A stretch of 64,000 nucleotides of DNA, taken from an uncultured Dehalococcoidia bacterium. GTDB lineage: Bacteria; Chloroflexota; Dehalococcoidia; Lucifugimonadales; UBA3495. The position numbers and the translations under genes are program-made. Each line of letters starts with the position of its first letter. Within the stretch, counting starts at the first letter, position 1. The DNA is taken from the NCBI GenBank assembly GCA_951813535.1, contig OX638345.1, forward strand, positions 1,129,029-1,193,028, in the 5' to 3' direction. Below the pieces are notes generated by a model, which worked only from the letters and a program-made list of their open reading frames with translations, ran no database searches and was not told the DNA's origin. Shown piece by piece: positions 13,970 through 21,438 of this stretch.

Positions 13970-14005
13970 TAATTTAGCGGAGGATATTGGCAGGAGGTGG
14001 AAGCT

Positions 14006-15073
14006 ATGGACGTACTGAATACGATGGTTAGCCGCGGTCACGAGCAGGTGACGATGTACAGCGACCCCGAGTCCGGCCTGCGGGGTATCATCGCCATCCA
14101 CGACACCACCCTGGGGCCGTCCTGCGGGGGCACGCGCATGTGGCCCTACGCCACCGAGCAGGAAGCCCTGGCCGACGCGTTGAATCTCTCGCGGGCCATG
14201 ACCTACAAGTCGGCGGCGGCCGGCCTGCATCTTGGCGGCGGCAAGGGCGTCATCATCGGCGATCCTCGCACCGACAAGACGGAGGCCCTGCTGCGGGCCT
14301 GGGGTCGGTTCGTGGATACGCTGGGCGGCCGCTACCTGACCACCACCGATGTGGGAACCACTGGCCGGGACCTGGAAGCGATCCGACAGGAAACGGAGCA
14401 CGTGGTGGGCCTCGATGTGACCCTGGGCGGCAGCGGCGACACGTCCGTCATGACCGGCCTGGGGATCTACATGGGCATGAAGGCCTGTGCCTCCGACGCC
14501 TGGGGCACGGACGACCTGCGTGGGCGCACCGTCGCGATGCAGGGGTTCGGCAAGGTGGCGACGCATACCGCTGGTCATCTGATCGAGGACGACGTTCGCA
14601 TCGTCGTCACCGATATCAACGAGTCGGCGCTTGACCGCGCCCGTCAGATGGGCGTCAAGGTCGTCGGACCCGACGATATCTACGACGTTGACTGTGACAT
14701 CTTTGCTCCCTGCGCGCTGGGAGGAGTCATCAACCCGGCCACCATTGACCGCCTGCGCTGTCGCATCGTGGCCGGGGGCGCCAACAACCAGCTGATGACG
14801 GCCGAAGACGGCGAGGAACTGCACCGACGCGGAATCGTCTACGCGCCTGATTTCCTGATCAACGCCGGCGGGGTCATCAACGCTGCCGCTGAGATCGGCC
14901 AGCCGTACAACCCGGAGCGTTCGCGGCAGCAAACGGAGCGGATCTACGAGCAGATGTCGGCGGTGCTGACCACGTCCCGCAAGCAGGAGATATCCACCGC
15001 CCGGGCGGCGGATATCCTGGCGGAATCGCGCCTGGACTCGGTGCGCCGGATGCGCCGGATCTGGCGGGGATAG
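14006..15073 (+). CDS. Leu/Glu/Phe/Val-type amino acid dehydrogenase
   Basis: 355 aa NAD(P)-dependent oxidative deaminase. The N-terminal domain has the glycine-rich substrate site GPSCGGTRMWPY, then MTYKSAAAGLHLGGGKGVI with the two conserved lysines. The Rossmann domain shows MQGFGKVATHTAGHL. The short length and sequence style fit leucine/branched-chain dehydrogenase (about 350 aa) rather than the 420-450 aa GDH form. AGGAGG at 13992-13997, 8 bases before ATG 14006, decides the start over the in-frame GTG 13997. It likely feeds amino acids, perhaps from the adjacent peptide importers, into 2-oxoacid metabolism (inference). Confidence 0.9.
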   Translation: MDVLNTMVSRGHEQVTMYSDPESGLRGIIAIHDTTLGPSCGGTRMWPYATEQEALADALNLSRAMTYKSAAAGLHLGGGKGVIIGDPRTDKTEALLRAWGRFVDTLGGRYLTTTDVGTTGRDLEAIRQETEHVVGLDVTLGGSGDTSVMTGLGIYMGMKACASDAWGTDDLRGRTVAMQGFGKVATHTAGHLIEDDVRIVVTDINESALDRARQMGVKVVGPDDIYDVDCDIFAPCALGGVINPATIDRLRCRIVAGGANNQLMTAEDGEELHRRGIVYAPDFLINAGGVINAAAEIGQPYNPERSRQQTERIYEQMSAVLTTSRKQEISTARAADILAESRLDSVRRMRRIWRG

Positions 15074-15174: not shown

Positions 15175-16026
15175 CTATTCCATCTGAAGGCCCTCGATCA
15201 AATCCCTGATCGTAGTCACATCAGCCGGCGCCCCCGGGATCGTGTGGGCGATCCGACCGGCTTTGTCGATGAAGATGTAAAAGGGCACGCCGGAGACGCC
15301 GTATACGCTCGAGAGTTGCCCGGCCGGGTCATAGGCTATGGGAAAACTCAGGTTCTGCTTGTCGATCAGCGCACGGACCTCGGGCTCGGGGGCGCTGATG
15401 GCGACGCCTACGATGTCGGCGCCGGCGCCGTCGAACTCATCGTGAAAACCCTGTACAGACGGCAACTGCCGTTGGCAATGTGGTCACCAGGGAGCCCAGA
15501 ACATCAACAACGTCGGAGTGCCCACGGTGTCCTCGAGGCGATAGTCGTTGCCATCCATGAAGGTTCCCGCGAACATAGGAGCCGGCGCACGCTGGTCGGC
15601 CCCGGCAGGGGTCGGGGTTGGGGATTCGGCGGTTGTCCTCACCATCTCCGCCGTCGGCGTGATCTCCACGGTTGGCGGCGCTGTGGGCGAGGGTGTGAGT
15701 ATCGCCGCAGTCGTGGCGGCCAGTCGAGGGTTCGACGCCTGGGTTGGATCCGGCGGTGGGCTGGGAGAAGGCGCGTTTGTAGGGACGGCGGCGGGCGCGT
15801 CCGGCTGCGCGGCTACGGAGGTTGGACCGGCACTTTCGGCGGTGGCCTCAGGCTTCCTCTCTTCCAACGAGCGCAGCGCAACCGCCACGGTTGCCTCGAT
15901 GTTGGGCGAATCGGGTTGAGCGCCGCCGTTAGCCGCGTCGTCGGTTTGAAGGCGGCAGCCTGATATGGTCAGGCAAAGGGCTACCACGACGGCGGCGGCC
16001 ATGATTAGCGCGGTGCGCCGAGGCAT
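15175..16026 (-). CDS. TlpA/thioredoxin-like lipoprotein, predicted selenoprotein (in-frame TGA at codon 181)
   Basis: A 283-aa product is predicted if TGA at 15486-15484 is read as selenocysteine. Residues 1-24 are a lipoprotein signal with lipobox ISGC (Cys24). A Pro/Thr/Ala/Ser-rich linker runs to about 145, then a TlpA/AhpC-type thioredoxin domain. The active-site stretch is TLLMFWAPW-[TGA]-PHCQRQLPSVQGF, so TGA sits exactly at the first Cys of the W-C-P-H-C motif. The frame stays open for about 100 further codons with normal features (GVSGVPFYIFIDKAGRI, including the cis-Pro loop). A hairpin follows the TGA (15459-15472). It starts 10 bases after the DUF3179 gene and is co-directional. 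The alternative is a nonsense mutation or sequence error, less likely given the identical situation next door. Confidence 0.85.
15459..15472 (-). promoter_or_regulatory. candidate bacterial SECIS hairpin of the TlpA-like gene
   Basis: In the mRNA, ACGGCAGUUGCCGU begins 11 bases after the UGA. It can form stem ACGG/CCGU with apical loop CAGUUG, putting the loop G about 18 bases from the UGA. That is at the short end of the spacing known for bacterial SECIS elements. Confidence 0.5.
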
Positions 16027-16036
16027 ACCGGGACAC

Positions 16037-17425
16037 TCAGCCGGTGGCTGGATACACGACGGTATCGGGACGATACACCGCCCACGAGAACCAGAGTTGA
16101 CCGATGCGGCCCGGCACCGGGGTCAAATTTGCGCCCTCCAGCGGCCCGCTGACGGCGCGCCCGAATATATCCCACTGGCTGCCGGTCTGCGCGTCCACGA
16201 TGCGGCCGTCCGGGTCCACCGCGAAGGTCAGCGTGTTGTCATCGGGGCCCTGCGGAGAAAATATCCCGGCGGTGCCTACGTCCCGTCCCCTGGCTATCGA
16301 TCCGGAATCCAGCGCGGACGCGGTTCCCGGCGCCCAGAACACCACAATGTCCTCGCCGGCCACGGATGTGGCGACCACGCGTTCCTCGGCCAGCGTGGTG
16401 AAGGATACTGCCCACGCCTCGTTGCCGCGCTCCACGGCCACGACCCGCTCGACAGCCGGCAGCCGGGGATCTTTCTCGCCCCTGAACAGGAACGGATCGC
16501 TCCCGGGCCTATCGTAGCCGGCGTATGGGTTCTCTCCGTATGCGCGGCGCGAGTCAGGCCGTGACAGTACCCGTCCGTCGGGGTGCGCCGCCTTGTAGTC
16601 GGCCCACGACACGATGGACAGGTAAAGCTGCTCCAGTTTGCGGCCGGCGAAGTGCCCGATGACTCCCTCGCCGCCCACTTCCTGCCACCACGTCTCGGTT
16701 TGGCGGTCGTACATCAGCAGGTTGCTGTTGCGCAGTGCGCCGGTGGTCCCGAAGTCGAGGAGCCTTCCGTCAACCGTCCGCCTGTACACGAAGGCGGTAT
16801 TGCAAAGCGGTCAAAACGTGATGACCACCGGTTCCCCGCCGACGGTGTCGTTGACCAGTTCGTGCCAGACCATCACCTGGACCGGATAGGCGCGAACGTC
16901 GCCGTTGAGGTCGACAACCTGCACGGGCTCAAGATCGTCGAGCCAGAAGTCAGCATCCTCAATCGACTCGAACTGCGGGTCGTCGATTGACGGGATACCG
17001 TCCTTGGGCGGCCCGCCGGTCATGATCTCGTCGAAGGAGATTGTCGTCCGCGTGAAGTCCGTGTCCCAGGTCGCTCGAAGGAGACGCTGGTAGCGCGTGC
17101 GTGCTTCTTCGGCTTCGTCTTCGGTGATTGTCTGGACGCGGACCTCGGTAGAGACGGGGAGAGAAGTGGCCGCCGGCAGCGCGGTGGCTGGCGATGCCAG
17201 GGCGGCGGTGGGCAGCGGCGTGGCGGCATCGGCCAATGACGCGGTGGGCAGGTGCGCGGCCGGCTCCAGGGTTGGGAACGCCGCGGTTGTGGGAGCGAGC
17301 GGAGCCGCCCATGGCTCACTGCTGGAGGTATCTTCCGAAGGAGCGCAGGACGCAGCCGTCAGTACCATCAGAAATATGCCGGCCAACGTGAACAGTTGGC
17401 CGGCATATTTCGTTGTCCGTGCCAT
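16037..17425 (-). CDS. DUF3179 lipoprotein, predicted selenoprotein (in-frame TGA at codon 205)
   Basis: A 462-aa product is predicted if TGA at 16813-16811 is read as selenocysteine. Residues 1-27 form a lipoprotein-like signal ending in AASC (Cys27). A Pro/Thr/Ala-rich linker follows to about 105, then a complete DUF3179 domain: VQVMVWHELVNDTVGGEPVV then ITF-[TGA]-PLCNTAFVYRRTVDG and DFGTTGALRNSNLLMYDRQT, ending in LWFSWAVYRPDTVVY. Other DUF3179 proteins have F-C-P-L-C-N here, so TGA replaces the first Cys of CxxC. A hairpin lies downstream (16778-16797). It begins 20 bases after the ABC permease stop without a clear ribosome site, so translational coupling is possible. The gene ends with a normal TGA. 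The biochemical role of DUF3179 is unknown. Confidence 0.88.
16778..16797 (-). promoter_or_regulatory. candidate bacterial SECIS hairpin of the DUF3179 gene
   Basis: In the mRNA the stem CCGCCU/AGGCGG (6 perfect pairs) encloses the 8-base loop UCGUGUAC. The stem begins 13 bases after the UGA and the loop about 20 bases after it, within the accepted bacterial SECIS window. The loop contains the GU typical of SelB-binding loops. Confidence 0.6.
17372..17410 (-). repeat. perfect 16-bp hairpin inside the start of the DUF3179 gene
   Basis: Arms 17372-17387 and 17395-17410 are exact inverted complements with a 7-base loop. The hairpin lies 36 bases after the permease stop and encodes residues 6-18 of the DUF3179 signal peptide. 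A short T-rich stretch follows the 3' arm on the minus strand. It could be the ABC operon terminator, an attenuator, or a translation-blocking structure. Confidence 0.7.
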
Positions 17426-17445: not shown

Positions 17446-18375
17446 TTAGCGTCCGCGCAGTCGCGGGTCCAGAACATCGCGAAGGGCGTCGCCCAGGATG
17501 TTGAAGCCCATCACAACCGCGAAAATCGCCACGCCCGGGAAGATGCCGACCCAGGGAGCGGTCAGCACGTGTTCCTGGGCGGCTCGCGTGAGCATTCCGC
17601 CCCAACTGGGCTGGTCAGGGGGCGCGCCGACTCCAAGGAAGGACAAAGACGCTTCGATGATGATGGCGAAGCCTAGGTAATAGGTGGCCAACACCAGGTA
17701 GATCGCAAAACAGTTCGGGATGATGTGCCGGAACACAATGCGCCACGGCGGCGCCCCGATGGCGGTGGCGGCGGTGACGTAGTCCAGCTCTTTGAGCGAC
17801 AGCACCTGTGATCTCACCGTCCGTATTACGGGGGCGATCATGCCGATGACGATCGCCAGGATGACATTGTTCAGTGACGAACCGAGCACCGCGACGATTG
17901 CCAGCGCGATTATCAGTCCGGGCAAGGCCATGAGCGCGTCAACGACGCGCTGGGCCGCCATGTCGATGATCCCGCCGGCATAAGCCAGGGCCACTCCGAT
18001 GATGAAACTGGCGGTGATCCCGATGAGGACGCTGCCGAGGCCGACGTACAGGCTGATGCGCGCGCCATAGATCAATCTGCTGAGAACGTCGCGTCCCACG
18101 TGGTCGGTGCCCAGCAGGAATTGGGAATTGGGCGGGATGTAAACGGTGGAACCGCCCTCGTGACGGTCGGGTAGTTCCCGAGCGCCATAGGGAGCAAGCA
18201 CCGGCGCCATCAAGGCTACGATCACCAGCACCAGCACCAGGAGGCCGCCGATGGCTCCCAGTGGTTTGCGACGCGTAAAGCGTTTGACTTCCCGGATGCC
18301 GGTTGCGGCCGGCTGGAACATCCCCGCTCTCGGCGGGACGGCTACCTCGGCGCGCTGATTGGTTTGATTCGCCAT
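17446..18375 (-). CDS. peptide/nickel-type ABC transporter permease (DppC/OppC family), operon 1
   Basis: About 309 aa inner-membrane subunit. The N-terminal cytoplasmic tail leads into TM1 (PLGAIGGLLVLVLVIVALMAP). The OppC signature FLLGTDHVGRDVLSRLIYGARISL is present, then the BPD permease domain with a binding loop around DYVTAATAIGAPPWRIVFRHI and a C-terminal SFLGVGAPPDQPSWGGML. It is the third gene of SBP-permease-permease, 64 bases after the DppB gene. I chose ATG 18375 over GTG 18387 because GAGGAG lies upstream. No ATP-binding subunit gene is near, so a shared ATPase elsewhere is required. Confidence 0.93.
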   Translation of the reverse strand: MANQTNQRAEVAVPPRAGMFQPAATGIREVKRFTRRKPLGAIGGLLVLVLVIVALMAPVLAPYGARELPDRHEGGSTVYIPPNSQFLLGTDHVGRDVLSRLIYGARISLYVGLGSVLIGITASFIIGVALAYAGGIIDMAAQRVVDALMALPGLIIALAIVAVLGSSLNNVILAIVIGMIAPVIRTVRSQVLSLKELDYVTAATAIGAPPWRIVFRHIIPNCFAIYLVLATYYLGFAIIIEASLSFLGVGAPPDQPSWGGMLTRAAQEHVLTAPWVGIFPGVAIFAVVMGFNILGDALRDVLDPRLRGR

Positions 18376-18439
18376 GAGTACGAACACTCCTCACGGAACA
18401 CTGGCCAGCGAGCGCAGGATGTTCCGATACACCCGCAAC

Positions 18440-19402
18440 CTACGAGTATCTGATCCTGGGATCCAGTATTCCATAAAGGATGTCGACGACCAGGTTCAAC
18501 AACAGCACCACGGCGGCAGCAAGCAGGACAACACCCTGCACCACGACAAAGTCGCGGTGGATGATGGCGTCGATCAGGTACCGGCCCACACCGGGTATCA
18601 CGAAGACGGATTCGATGATAATGGTGCCGCCCAGCAGCCGGCCGAACTGATAACCGGACACGGTGATGACCGGCAGCAGGGCGTTTTTCAACGCGTGCCG
18701 CCCCACCACCATCCACTCGTTCAGGCCCTTGGACCGGGCGGTTCTCATGTAGTCTTCCCGCATCACTTCCAACATGGCGGAACGGGCCACCCTGGCCGTG
18801 AACGCCATGTCATGGAAGGCGAGGACCAGGGCCGGGAAGATCAATTGCTGCAGGTTGGTGAACGGATCACCCCATAATGTGGCATAGCCCAACGGAGGCA
18901 ACCAACCGGCGAAATAGGTCAATCCATAGATCACCAGTATTCCCAGCCAGAAGGTCGGCAAAGCGATGCCGACCAGGGCCAGAAGCCGGCTGATGTGGTC
19001 CAGGAATGAATCCTGCTTGACCGCGGACAGCACTCCCAAGGGCACGGCGGCGATGAATGCCAGCACAATAGCCAGCATCGCCAGTTCAAGGGTTATGAAA
19101 AACCGGTCTTTCAGGTCATCCAGGATCGGCGTTCCATACCATACTGAATCGCCGAAGTCGCCCTGGAGAATTTTCCAAAGCCAATCGCCATACTGGATGT
19201 ACACCGGGCGGTCAAGGCCCAGTTCTTTCTGAACGCGCTTGATGTCCTCTTCTGTGACCTTGCCGCCGTCACCCTCTTCCCCCGTCAGGATCATCATGGC
19301 AGCGTCCCCTGGCACGATCCAGAAGAGGCCAAACACCAGGATTGTGGTGAGCAGGATAGTGGGTATGAACAGCAGGCCCCTACGGGCTATGTATGCGTAC
19401 AC
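18440..19402 (-). CDS. peptide/nickel-type ABC transporter permease (DppB/OppB family), operon 1
   Basis: 320 aa. TM1 is at the extreme N-terminus (RRGLLFIPTILLTTILVFGL), followed by an extracytoplasmic segment containing the family signature LGLDRPVYIQYGDWLWKILQ and GDFGDSVW. The permease domain has SRLLALVGIALPTFWLGI and the loop YMRTARSKGLNEWMVVGRHA. The C-terminal end DILYGILDPRIRYS is the standard DppB ending. It pairs with the DppC protein to form the channel. It is 85 bases after the binding-protein gene and very similar in plan to 22573-23541. Confidence 0.94.
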   Translation of the reverse strand: MYAYIARRGLLFIPTILLTTILVFGLFWIVPGDAAMMILTGEEGDGGKVTEEDIKRVQKELGLDRPVYIQYGDWLWKILQGDFGDSVWYGTPILDDLKDRFFITLELAMLAIVLAFIAAVPLGVLSAVKQDSFLDHISRLLALVGIALPTFWLGILVIYGLTYFAGWLPPLGYATLWGDPFTNLQQLIFPALVLAFHDMAFTARVARSAMLEVMREDYMRTARSKGLNEWMVVGRHALKNALLPVITVSGYQFGRLLGGTIIIESVFVIPGVGRYLIDAIIHRDFVVVQGVVLLAAAVVLLLNLVVDILYGILDPRIRYS

Positions 19403-19487: not shown

Positions 19488-21338
19488 CTAGGGTTGATAA
19501 CCCGTTTCGGTGGGTTGCTCACGGTCCGGATCGAACCAGACGTGGTCCCATTTGTGAATCTGCTGGACGGTGGGCGGCAGGTGGAAGTTCCGGATGCGAT
19601 AATCCAGCGCGCCGCCGGCTCCACCCCAGAAATACACCACGAGGTGACTGCTACCGGTGTGCAGGATGCTGGCGATTTCTTCCAGGTGGCCCTGCCGGAC
19701 ACGCTGGTCGATCGCCCGGTTTTGAAGGTCGATCAACTCATCGACCCGGTCGTCCTGCCAGTTTTGCGGATTGCGCAGAACATCCTGCAGGTAGAACTGA
19801 TTGAGAATGTCCGCCGGGTCGGTCAGGATGATGCCAGTGCCGACGGTGGAGATTTCGTGCGTCCCGTCCCGCATCACAGCGTAGGTGGTGGCCAGGTCGT
19901 TGGGTACGATTTCGATGTCGATACCAATGTCTCGCCGCAGCTGCTCTCCGGCGACTTCAGCCGCCGGCAGAGTGGGGATGGCGTTCCGAGTGTTCATCTT
20001 GACCGAAAGACCATCGGGGTAGCCGGCTTCGGCGAGCAACTGCTTGGCTTCTGCGATCGCGGCGGTACGGTCTTCGGCGAACGCGGGGTTGTTGGCGCGC
20101 AGATCGGCCAGATCCTCGACCACCCCTGGTGAGAAGAAAGTGCCGGGTTGACCGAACCCCCTGACCGCGCGCTCGATGCCCAGATCGCGGTCCAGACCCA
20201 GGTAGAACGCCCGCCGTACCCTCTCGTCGTCGAACGGGGGTTTGGCGTTATTGAGGAAGTACGCCTCGAAACCGGCGCTGGGAAGGATCAGGGCACGCAC
20301 CTGGCCGTCGGTTTCCTCCTCCAGTACCGCCATTGCTTCGGGTCGGTTCACGCCGGTAAAGGGATTGAAGGTTCCCAGTACCTGGCCGGCCTGCAGAGCG
20401 GCAATACGGCGGGCGGTATCCGGGATGAGGTGCACGATGATGCCATCAAAGAACGGGCGACCTTCCTTGAAATACGTGGTATTTCGCTCAAAGGTGTAGC
20501 TTACGTCCTTCTGCCAGCCGCCCAGGAGCCAGGGTCCGGAACCGATCAGGTTTTCCGGCTGGTTGGCTTCCTCCTGCGTCAGATCCTCGGCGATGTGTTT
20601 CGGGTACATCTTCATGTAGTCCGATGCGAGGTTCGGCATGAAGGTGGGCGCCTGGTACTTCAGGGGCACGCGCACGGTCTGGGTGTCAATTACCTCGGCG
20701 GTCTGATGCTCATAGAACGCACGGAGGAAACCGGTGCGCGCCCGCTGGGCTCCCGGCAAGGTGATGCGGTCCAGGCTGAAGACCACGTCTTCCGCCGTGA
20801 CCGGCGCGCCGTCCGACCAGGTGGCGTCCTTCAGGTGAAAGACGTACTCGGTGCCGTCGTCGCTCACTTCCCACGTCGAGGCCAGGTCGCCGATGATTTC
20901 GCTGGGCTTGACGGGGTTATATTCGACCAGCTGATTGAACCGTGGGCTTGAGGGCATCAGCGTGGTGTTGAGGGAGCCCCCGTAATGGACGTCCCAGAAC
21001 CCCGGGTTGCTGTTGCCAACCATGGGGAACGTGCCCCGGTAATGCTTGCCTTCGCCTTCCTGCCACCAGTCCGGGCGTTCGTCTATGGATACCGGTGTCG
21101 GCACCGGTATAGCGGTGGGCGTCGCGTCGAGAACCCGCGTCGGCATGGGCGTGAACGTGGGTGTAGGGGCTGCCTCGGCAGAGCTACCGGACGCCGCCGG
21201 TTGGGACTGCTGAGCCTGGCTTGGCGCGGTGCTGGGCTCGGGGGTAGTGGTTCCGCCACAGGCCAGCCCGACTACCAACAGGGCTGCGCAGCTCACAAGC
21301 AACAACCATTGGGGTCTCCCGATTCGTCGGAACTTCAT
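19488..21338 (-). CDS. peptide-type ABC transporter substrate-binding lipoprotein (SBP family 5), operon 1
   Basis: 616 aa. A lipoprotein signal ends in GLAC (Cys27), then a Ser/Gln/Pro/Thr-rich linker to about 90 and an SBP_bac_5 domain: WEVSDDGTEYVFHLKDATWS, SDGAPVTAEDVVFSLDRIT and the later RRAFYLGLDRDLGIERAV. It binds peptides or related ligands outside the membrane for the two permeases downstream. GGGAGGG before ATG 21338 decides the start over an ATG 21 bases upstream. It is strongly similar along its length to 23603-25516 (for example PGFWDVHYG, PRFNQLVEYNPV and NLASDYMKMYP), so the two operons are duplicates. The promoter is at 21439-21467. Confidence 0.94.
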   Translation of the reverse strand: MKFRRIGRPQWLLLVSCAALLVVGLACGGTTTPEPSTAPSQAQQSQPAASGSSAEAAPTPTFTPMPTRVLDATPTAIPVPTPVSIDERPDWWQEGEGKHYRGTFPMVGNSNPGFWDVHYGGSLNTTLMPSSPRFNQLVEYNPVKPSEIIGDLASTWEVSDDGTEYVFHLKDATWSDGAPVTAEDVVFSLDRITLPGAQRARTGFLRAFYEHQTAEVIDTQTVRVPLKYQAPTFMPNLASDYMKMYPKHIAEDLTQEEANQPENLIGSGPWLLGGWQKDVSYTFERNTTYFKEGRPFFDGIIVHLIPDTARRIAALQAGQVLGTFNPFTGVNRPEAMAVLEEETDGQVRALILPSAGFEAYFLNNAKPPFDDERVRRAFYLGLDRDLGIERAVRGFGQPGTFFSPGVVEDLADLRANNPAFAEDRTAAIAEAKQLLAEAGYPDGLSVKMNTRNAIPTLPAAEVAGEQLRRDIGIDIEIVPNDLATTYAVMRDGTHEISTVGTGIILTDPADILNQFYLQDVLRNPQNWQDDRVDELIDLQNRAIDQRVRQGHLEEIASILHTGSSHLVVYFWGGAGGALDYRIRNFHLPPTVQQIHKWDHVWFDPDREQPTETGYQP

Positions 21339-21438
21339 TGGCGAACCCTCCCGTTTCACATCATTTGAACGCAGGTGAACGGACGACCGTCAGCCGTCCT
21401 GACGATGCTGGCCGCGCTGGGGTGGCCAGTGTGGGGGG

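Follow-up and report, generated by a model that had tools for sequence, protein, structure and literature searches.

A bacterium of the Dehalococcoidia (Chloroflexota) carries, within a 64,000-nucleotide stretch of contig OX638345.1 (the window), two adjoining genes which each contain an in-frame TGA codon at the first position of a CxxC-type motif. One encodes a DUF3179 protein and the other a thioredoxin-like protein of the TlpA/ResA type. The initial annotation proposed that the two are surface-anchored selenoproteins which together form a possible undescribed redox module, in which one protein would recycle the other. The locus therefore raises the question of whether both TGA codons specify selenocysteine (Sec), and whether the two genes belong to a conserved double-Sec module, to a looser partnership or to no partnership at all.

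Two adjoining genes with in-frame TGA codons

The genes and their elements are all located on the reverse strand:
16037 to 17425, reverse strand: DUF3179 selenoprotein gene of the lipoprotein type, 462 amino acids including Sec, with a full PF11376 domain
17345 to 17425, reverse strand: lipoprotein-type signal of the DUF3179 protein, MARTTKYAGQLFTLAGIFLMVLTAASC, read off the sequence
16811 to 16813, reverse strand: Sec codon TGA of DUF3179, in the context VITF-U-PLC, position 1 of the CPLC motif
16778 to 16797, reverse strand: SECIS-like hairpin 3' of the DUF3179 UGA, a 6-bp stem (CCGCCU/AGGCGG) with an 8-nt loop, UCGUGUAC
15175 to 16026, reverse strand: TlpA/ResA-like selenoprotein gene of the lipoprotein type, 283 amino acids including Sec
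15955 to 16026, reverse strand: lipoprotein-type signal of the TlpA protein, MPRRTALIMAAAVVVALCLTISGC, read off the sequence
15484 to 15486, reverse strand: Sec codon TGA of TlpA, in the context WAPW-U-PHC, position 1 of the thioredoxin CxxC
15459 to 15472, reverse strand: SECIS-like inner hairpin 3' of the TlpA UGA, ACGGC-AGUU-GCCGU

The two genes are co-directional and separated by 10 bases (16027 to 16036), as first described. Each contains exactly one in-frame TGA ahead of its own stop codon, which is TGA (16037 to 16039) in the case of DUF3179 and TAG in the case of TlpA. The Pfam DUF3179 match spans the TGA and covers the entire profile (positions 1-292 of 292, E=6e-97, 325 bits against a cut-off of 27), and the AhpC-TSA match spans the TGA of the second gene in the same manner (positions 4-123 of 124, E=3e-23; Redoxin, 1.5e-20). 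The TlpA protein is an AhpC-TSA/Redoxin domain with a WxxWCxxC motif in which Sec replaces the first Cys. Its best NCBIfam matches are ResA and StoA, both under cut-off, and with 80.8 bits against a ResA (NF002854 / PRK03147) cut-off of 170 it is ResA-like rather than ResA; a phmmer search for relatives of solved structure returned none at E<=0.001. The N-termini of both proteins are of the lipoprotein type (..LTAASC and ..LTISGC) and are followed by Pro/Thr/Ala-rich linkers, in agreement with the initial annotation. Linkers of this kind are also present on the substrate-binding lipoprotein and on a 506-residue lipoprotein of congeners, and thus reflect a habit of the lineage and are no hallmark of this pair. 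UxxC is found in both proteins, but the claim that it sits at the same place holds only loosely: in DUF3179 Sec occupies position 205 of 462, about 65 residues into the domain, and in TlpA position 181 of 283, about 34 residues into the domain.

On sequence evidence, both genes are genuine selenoprotein genes. The host genome, a single contig of 4.38 Mb which is 99.8% complete, encodes tRNA-Sec (66 bits, tca anticodon), SelB (355 bits) and SelD (370 bits), the gene of the latter itself bearing an in-frame TGA. The argument that the two codons did not arise by chance is upheld by their conservation, as the TGA of DUF3179 is kept at the same site in all 14 congeners and also in many relatives, and that of TlpA in one ortholog and in paralogs. 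An explanation of the TGA codons as sequencing errors, pseudogene stops or global recoding is hence rejected as highly improbable in view of the conserved TGA, the Sec machinery and the conserved hairpins; global recoding had already been discounted, and DUF3179 does itself terminate with TGA.

The case for the hairpins is built on comparison, since single-sequence folding yields weak z-scores (-0.47 for the DUF3179 hairpin and -1.09 for that of TlpA). Across many lineages, 44 Sec-form DUF3179 genes have a stem of 6-8 bp downstream of the UGA, mostly at an offset of +16 to +34/35 and with a loop of the CGUGU type. The 94 Cys-form genes compared with them, which have the same GC, form shorter stems (p=2e-13) and fold with weaker energy (MFE, p=3e-12), values which overstate independence because many of the 44 genes are related. 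Ten Sec-TlpA paralogs possess a common stem with an AGUUG cap in which six of seven pairs are formed in all ten, and compensatory changes have altered several pairs on both sides. The TlpA gene of the window has an equivalent hairpin whose register is off by one base relative to these paralogs.

The expectation that the TGA state follows the Sec machinery is borne out in part. In genomes of the class that are at least 90% complete and encode DUF3179, SelB is present in 16/16 of those among the TGA forms listed, as opposed to 49/61 without a listed TGA form (p=0.047); once incomplete genomes are counted as well, the association among the TGA forms listed is not significant (p=0.29). The cross-genome association was computed for SelB, and selD was examined in the bacterium's own genome. 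This genome is rich in Sec: TGA codons are found in 7/12 AhpC-TSA/redoxin-type matches and in 2/3 DUF3179 copies, so that under independence roughly 0.4 of its DUF3179-TlpA neighbours are expected to be Sec/Sec and the presence of Sec in both genes is by itself no surprise. The second Sec-form DUF3179 (L018/L050, G000:C1:4071638-4072561) is a UTLC variant without an adjoining TlpA gene, and has TGA-bearing relatives throughout the genus and family.

A fixed gene and an optional gene behind an oligopeptide importer

The pair was said to lie behind a peptide importer operon, and this is the case. The relevant neighbours are:
17446 to 18387, reverse strand: OppC-type ABC permease (NCBIfam), directly upstream of DUF3179
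18440 to 19402, reverse strand: OppB-type ABC permease (NCBIfam and gene order in congeners)
19488 to 21359, reverse strand: oligopeptide-type substrate-binding lipoprotein (NCBIfam and gene order in congeners)
13997 to 15073, forward strand: amino-acid dehydrogenase which bounds the variable tlpA slot; the best NCBIfam match is ScyB tryptophan dehydrogenase, below cut-off

Two successive sets of OppB, OppC and substrate-binding protein genes are located upstream of DUF3179 between positions 17446 and 25516, and no importer ATPase gene was identified in the examined part of this interval. A Sec-form DUF3179 ortholog was found in 13/13 congeners searched, and the order substrate-binding protein, OppB, OppC, DUF3179(Sec) is kept in each congener whose contig extends that far. 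Across the genus, the Opp-type importer cluster consistently ends in Sec-form DUF3179.

The same does not apply to tlpA. Downstream of DUF3179 the congeners carry the opposite-strand amino-acid dehydrogenase gene, and the slot between the two genes varies in length: six congeners have 41-166 bp there, two have about 620 bp and four have 1.2-1.7 kb. It contains tlpA in 2/14 congeners only, namely in the window and in G294, whose Sec-form ortholog is 81% identical and is the sole ortholog in the slot among congeners. A conserved double-Sec module, as originally envisaged, is rejected on these grounds, and in genomes outside the genus Sec and Cys forms of the two proteins mix freely. Among relatives in which the whole region is visible, the one closest in OppB (98%) has nothing in the slot. 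In two of the four congeners with a slot of 1.2-1.7 kb, those that were read, it is occupied by the 506-residue lipoprotein, which has no Pfam match (L222:5057-6577 and L104:7042-8562); this protein has a Pro/Thr-rich linker and a HEYAH motif of the HExxH type, and is possibly an anchored metallopeptidase. Other congeners encode Sec-TlpA paralogs at other sites, 45-52% identical and with the TGA kept, and close relatives of the TlpA of the window have been seen so far in one genus only. Given the patchy contents of the slot and the paralogs elsewhere, the simplest history is one in which tlpA was gained or lost within a variable slot. The tlpA(Sec) gene is an optional gene of this slot, and its pairing with DUF3179 at the window is a recent, optional arrangement.

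The DUF3179 domain and its thioredoxin-like neighbours

DUF3179 proteins are widespread in bacteria and are also found in archaea. In an alignment of 24 homologs the CxLC pair and His48-Glu49 are among the invariant positions, and the column of the Sec codon is invariantly Cys or Sec. The two halves of the domain are homologous (hhalign 99.9%, E=1.6e-31) and thus represent a tandem duplication, of which only the N-terminal half has the CxLC motif. No close relative of solved structure was found by sequence search, the best match being to fibronectin with E=0.055. The AlphaFold2 model (pLDDT 93.5, pTM 0.91) has no Foldseek match at E<=0.001; its similarity to Rieske domains has a probability of 0.94 with E 0.07. 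Nearly all of the best 50 VIA matches are Rieske domains, with Z values up to 8.5 over about 92 residues (model residues 34-134), which is near the level of a common arrangement, and in a few the C-terminal half, too, is matched to Rieske domains. The likeness to Rieske [2Fe-2S] proteins (e.g. 2qpz, 3gce) is one of predicted fold. Comparison with Rieske sequence profiles gives an hhalign probability below 5%, and sequence homology between the two groups finds no support. Since the conserved columns of the alignment do not show the CxH...CxxH ligands, DUF3179 is not expected to bind a cluster. The Rieske-like fold of the model is a lead and does not amount to membership of that family.

The proposed search for neighbouring DUF3179 and TlpA genes in other genomes shows that such pairs recur. 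In a survey of 108 DUF3179 loci, from which obvious congeners had been taken out and in which the window was counted, 17 have a TlpA-type gene within 1 kb, in 14 cases on the same strand; the 17 include the window itself and one locus (L120) whose neighbour is peroxiredoxin-like and not TlpA. The density of TlpA-type genes falls from 0.083/kb within 1 kb to about 0.016/kb between 1 and 5 kb (binomial p=2.3e-5), and the enrichment relative to positions further out amounts to 3-8 times. At about 84% of the loci, no TlpA-type gene lies within that first kb. The TlpA-adjacent loci come from records of Chloroflexota, Nitrospira, Actinomycetota, Bacteroidetes and Gemmatimonadetes, and the neighbouring TlpA genes fall into at least three clades which comprise WAGLCPPC proteins (40-59% mutual identity), CPTC/CSSC proteins and others including that of the window, which is only 25-30% identical to the clade most common beside DUF3179. 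Within the class, WAGLCPPC proteins are mostly encoded away from DUF3179, which means that the partnership is not exclusive. In the tally of neighbouring families AhpC-TSA/Redoxin is among the commonest, though still rare, and the top families include none involved in metal transport or cytochrome oxidase.

The combinations of Sec and Cys forms vary from locus to locus. Sec DUF3179 is found with Cys TlpA at L051, L052, L053 and L106, and Cys forms of both are found at L077, L085, L086, L109 and others. Sec/Sec pairs are found in the window and G294 and, at a distance of 1-3.4 kb, at L064 and L065. These latter two (genus g24) constitute a second Sec/Sec neighbourhood, in which Sec DUF3179 is accompanied on the opposite strand by two tandem Sec-TlpA genes (UPSC, and UPSC or UPIC) of a clade that differs from that of the window. 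Peroxiredoxin-like TGA frames with UPAC, UPYC or ULPC motifs (L107:541-915, L120:6388-6678, L151:2351-2740 and L166:4505-4801) are located 0.1-3.2 kb from Cys-form or unclassified DUF3179 genes. In several Chloroflexota/Anaerolineae genomes DUF3179 itself is present in two or three tandem copies (L160, L176, L178, L179 and L181).

At one locus the two domains are joined in a single protein. A Thermoflexales bacterium (Chloroflexota) encodes a fusion of 576 amino acids (L123, SKQX01000049.1, 310-2037) which consists of a lipoprotein signal, DUF3179 (CPLC), a linker and TlpA (WAGLCPIC), and whose reading frame is preceded by a GGGGAGG Shine-Dalgarno sequence and has no internal stop. The evidence for fusion comes from this one instance, on a MAG contig of 3.9 kb, and a scan of 400 genomes of the phylum yielded no other.

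Readings of the pairing

Both selenoprotein families have been catalogued before, and in this respect the locus is not new: DUF3179 (PF11376, UxxC/T) selenoproteins and UxxC selenoproteins of the TlpA, thiol-disulfide isomerase-like, redoxin and thioredoxin_8 types are all listed in two reviews (PMC9312934, PMC13188914). Both reviews credit the DUF3179 selenoprotein to Zhang and Gladyshev 2007 (Olavius symbiont), and their tables, as far as available, describe neither a structure nor a partner nor a comparison of SECIS elements for DUF3179. The DUF3179 gene of the window shares with the known examples the Pfam family and Sec at position 1 of a CxxC-type motif, and differs from them in its occurrence in a Chloroflexota genus and its fixed position behind an Opp importer. 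Similarly, the TlpA protein has the AhpC-TSA/Redoxin thioredoxin fold, Sec at CxxC position 1 and the membrane anchor of TlpA/redoxin selenoproteins, of which ResA and StoA are characterised Cys homologs, but it scores below the NCBIfam ResA, StoA and WAxxUGC cut-offs and has a long Pro/Thr/Ala-rich tether. Operons of at least two selenoprotein genes are a described phenomenon and include grdA-grdB, prdB-prdC, Prx with a SELENOW-like gene and Prx-like with an AhpD-like gene (PMC13188914). The window resembles these in that adjacent Sec genes of different families presumably have a common redox role; DUF3179 with TlpA is absent from that list (PMC13188914), and the association is facultative with the Sec states uncoupled. 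The open-licence literature on DUF3179, as far as its text is available, makes no mention of a pairing with TlpA. The new element, which tends to tie DUF3179 to a thioredoxin-like partner, consists of the adjacency statistics from other genomes and the one fusion.

The favoured reading, with a probability of about 0.55, is that DUF3179 takes part in a recurrent, facultative extracytoplasmic redox partnership with interchangeable TlpA-type thioredoxins. Both products would be lipid-anchored at the outer face of the membrane, where DUF3179 would engage in thiol/selenol redox chemistry: the first of its two Rieske-like domains holds the CxLC (UxLC) pair, which would alternate between reduced and (selenenyl)disulfide states. 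A TlpA/ResA-like thioredoxin, supplied as a separate gene of varied clades or as a fused domain, would be its frequent and interchangeable exchange partner, and Sec may serve reactivity in whichever partner a Sec-rich host favours without being needed in both. A juxtaposition devoid of functional meaning, in which the variable slot happened to receive a Sec-TlpA paralog and the two became Sec neighbours by chance, is a less probable though serious competitor. It draws on the frequency of TGA in the AhpC-TSA and DUF3179 genes of this genome, on a slot which in other congeners is empty or filled with unrelated DNA or genes, and on the distance of this TlpA from the clade commonest beside DUF3179; such an account leaves the enrichment of TlpA genes of several clades next to DUF3179, the natural fusion and the 10-base gap between co-directional genes without a cause.

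Two further proposals concern DUF3179 itself. The more ambitious, and put forward tentatively, is that the family may represent a previously unrecognised class of thiol/selenol oxidoreductases. Its fold would be Rieske-like, duplicated in tandem and devoid of a cluster, with CxLC/UxLC in place of the iron-sulphur site, and exchangeable thioredoxins of the TlpA type would serve it outside the membrane. TlpA is known to keep the thiols of Sco and CuA sites reduced for metal loading, and together with the CxLC motif, the invariant His48-Glu49 and the predicted Rieske-like fold this precedent would suit a metal handler, for instance of copper or another soft metal, with CxLC/UxLC and the conserved His as ligands on a scaffold that lacks a cluster, and with TlpA keeping the thiols reduced. 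That role is rather unlikely, as the free exchange of Sec and Cys at the first position is typical of redox sites rather than structural metal sites, and the families expected of a metal pathway do not figure prominently near DUF3179.

For the redox partnership favoured here, the link by adjacency and fusion combined with the predicted fold renders a redox role of DUF3179 testable. For the uncharacterised DUF3179 family this amounts to a concrete biochemical hypothesis, built on the fold prediction, on a probable redox pair in which Sec and Cys exchange and on a thioredoxin-like neighbour that recurs and is once fused to it, and the window serves as an example of a Sec-rich lineage which places Sec in adjoining genes without strict coupling between them.
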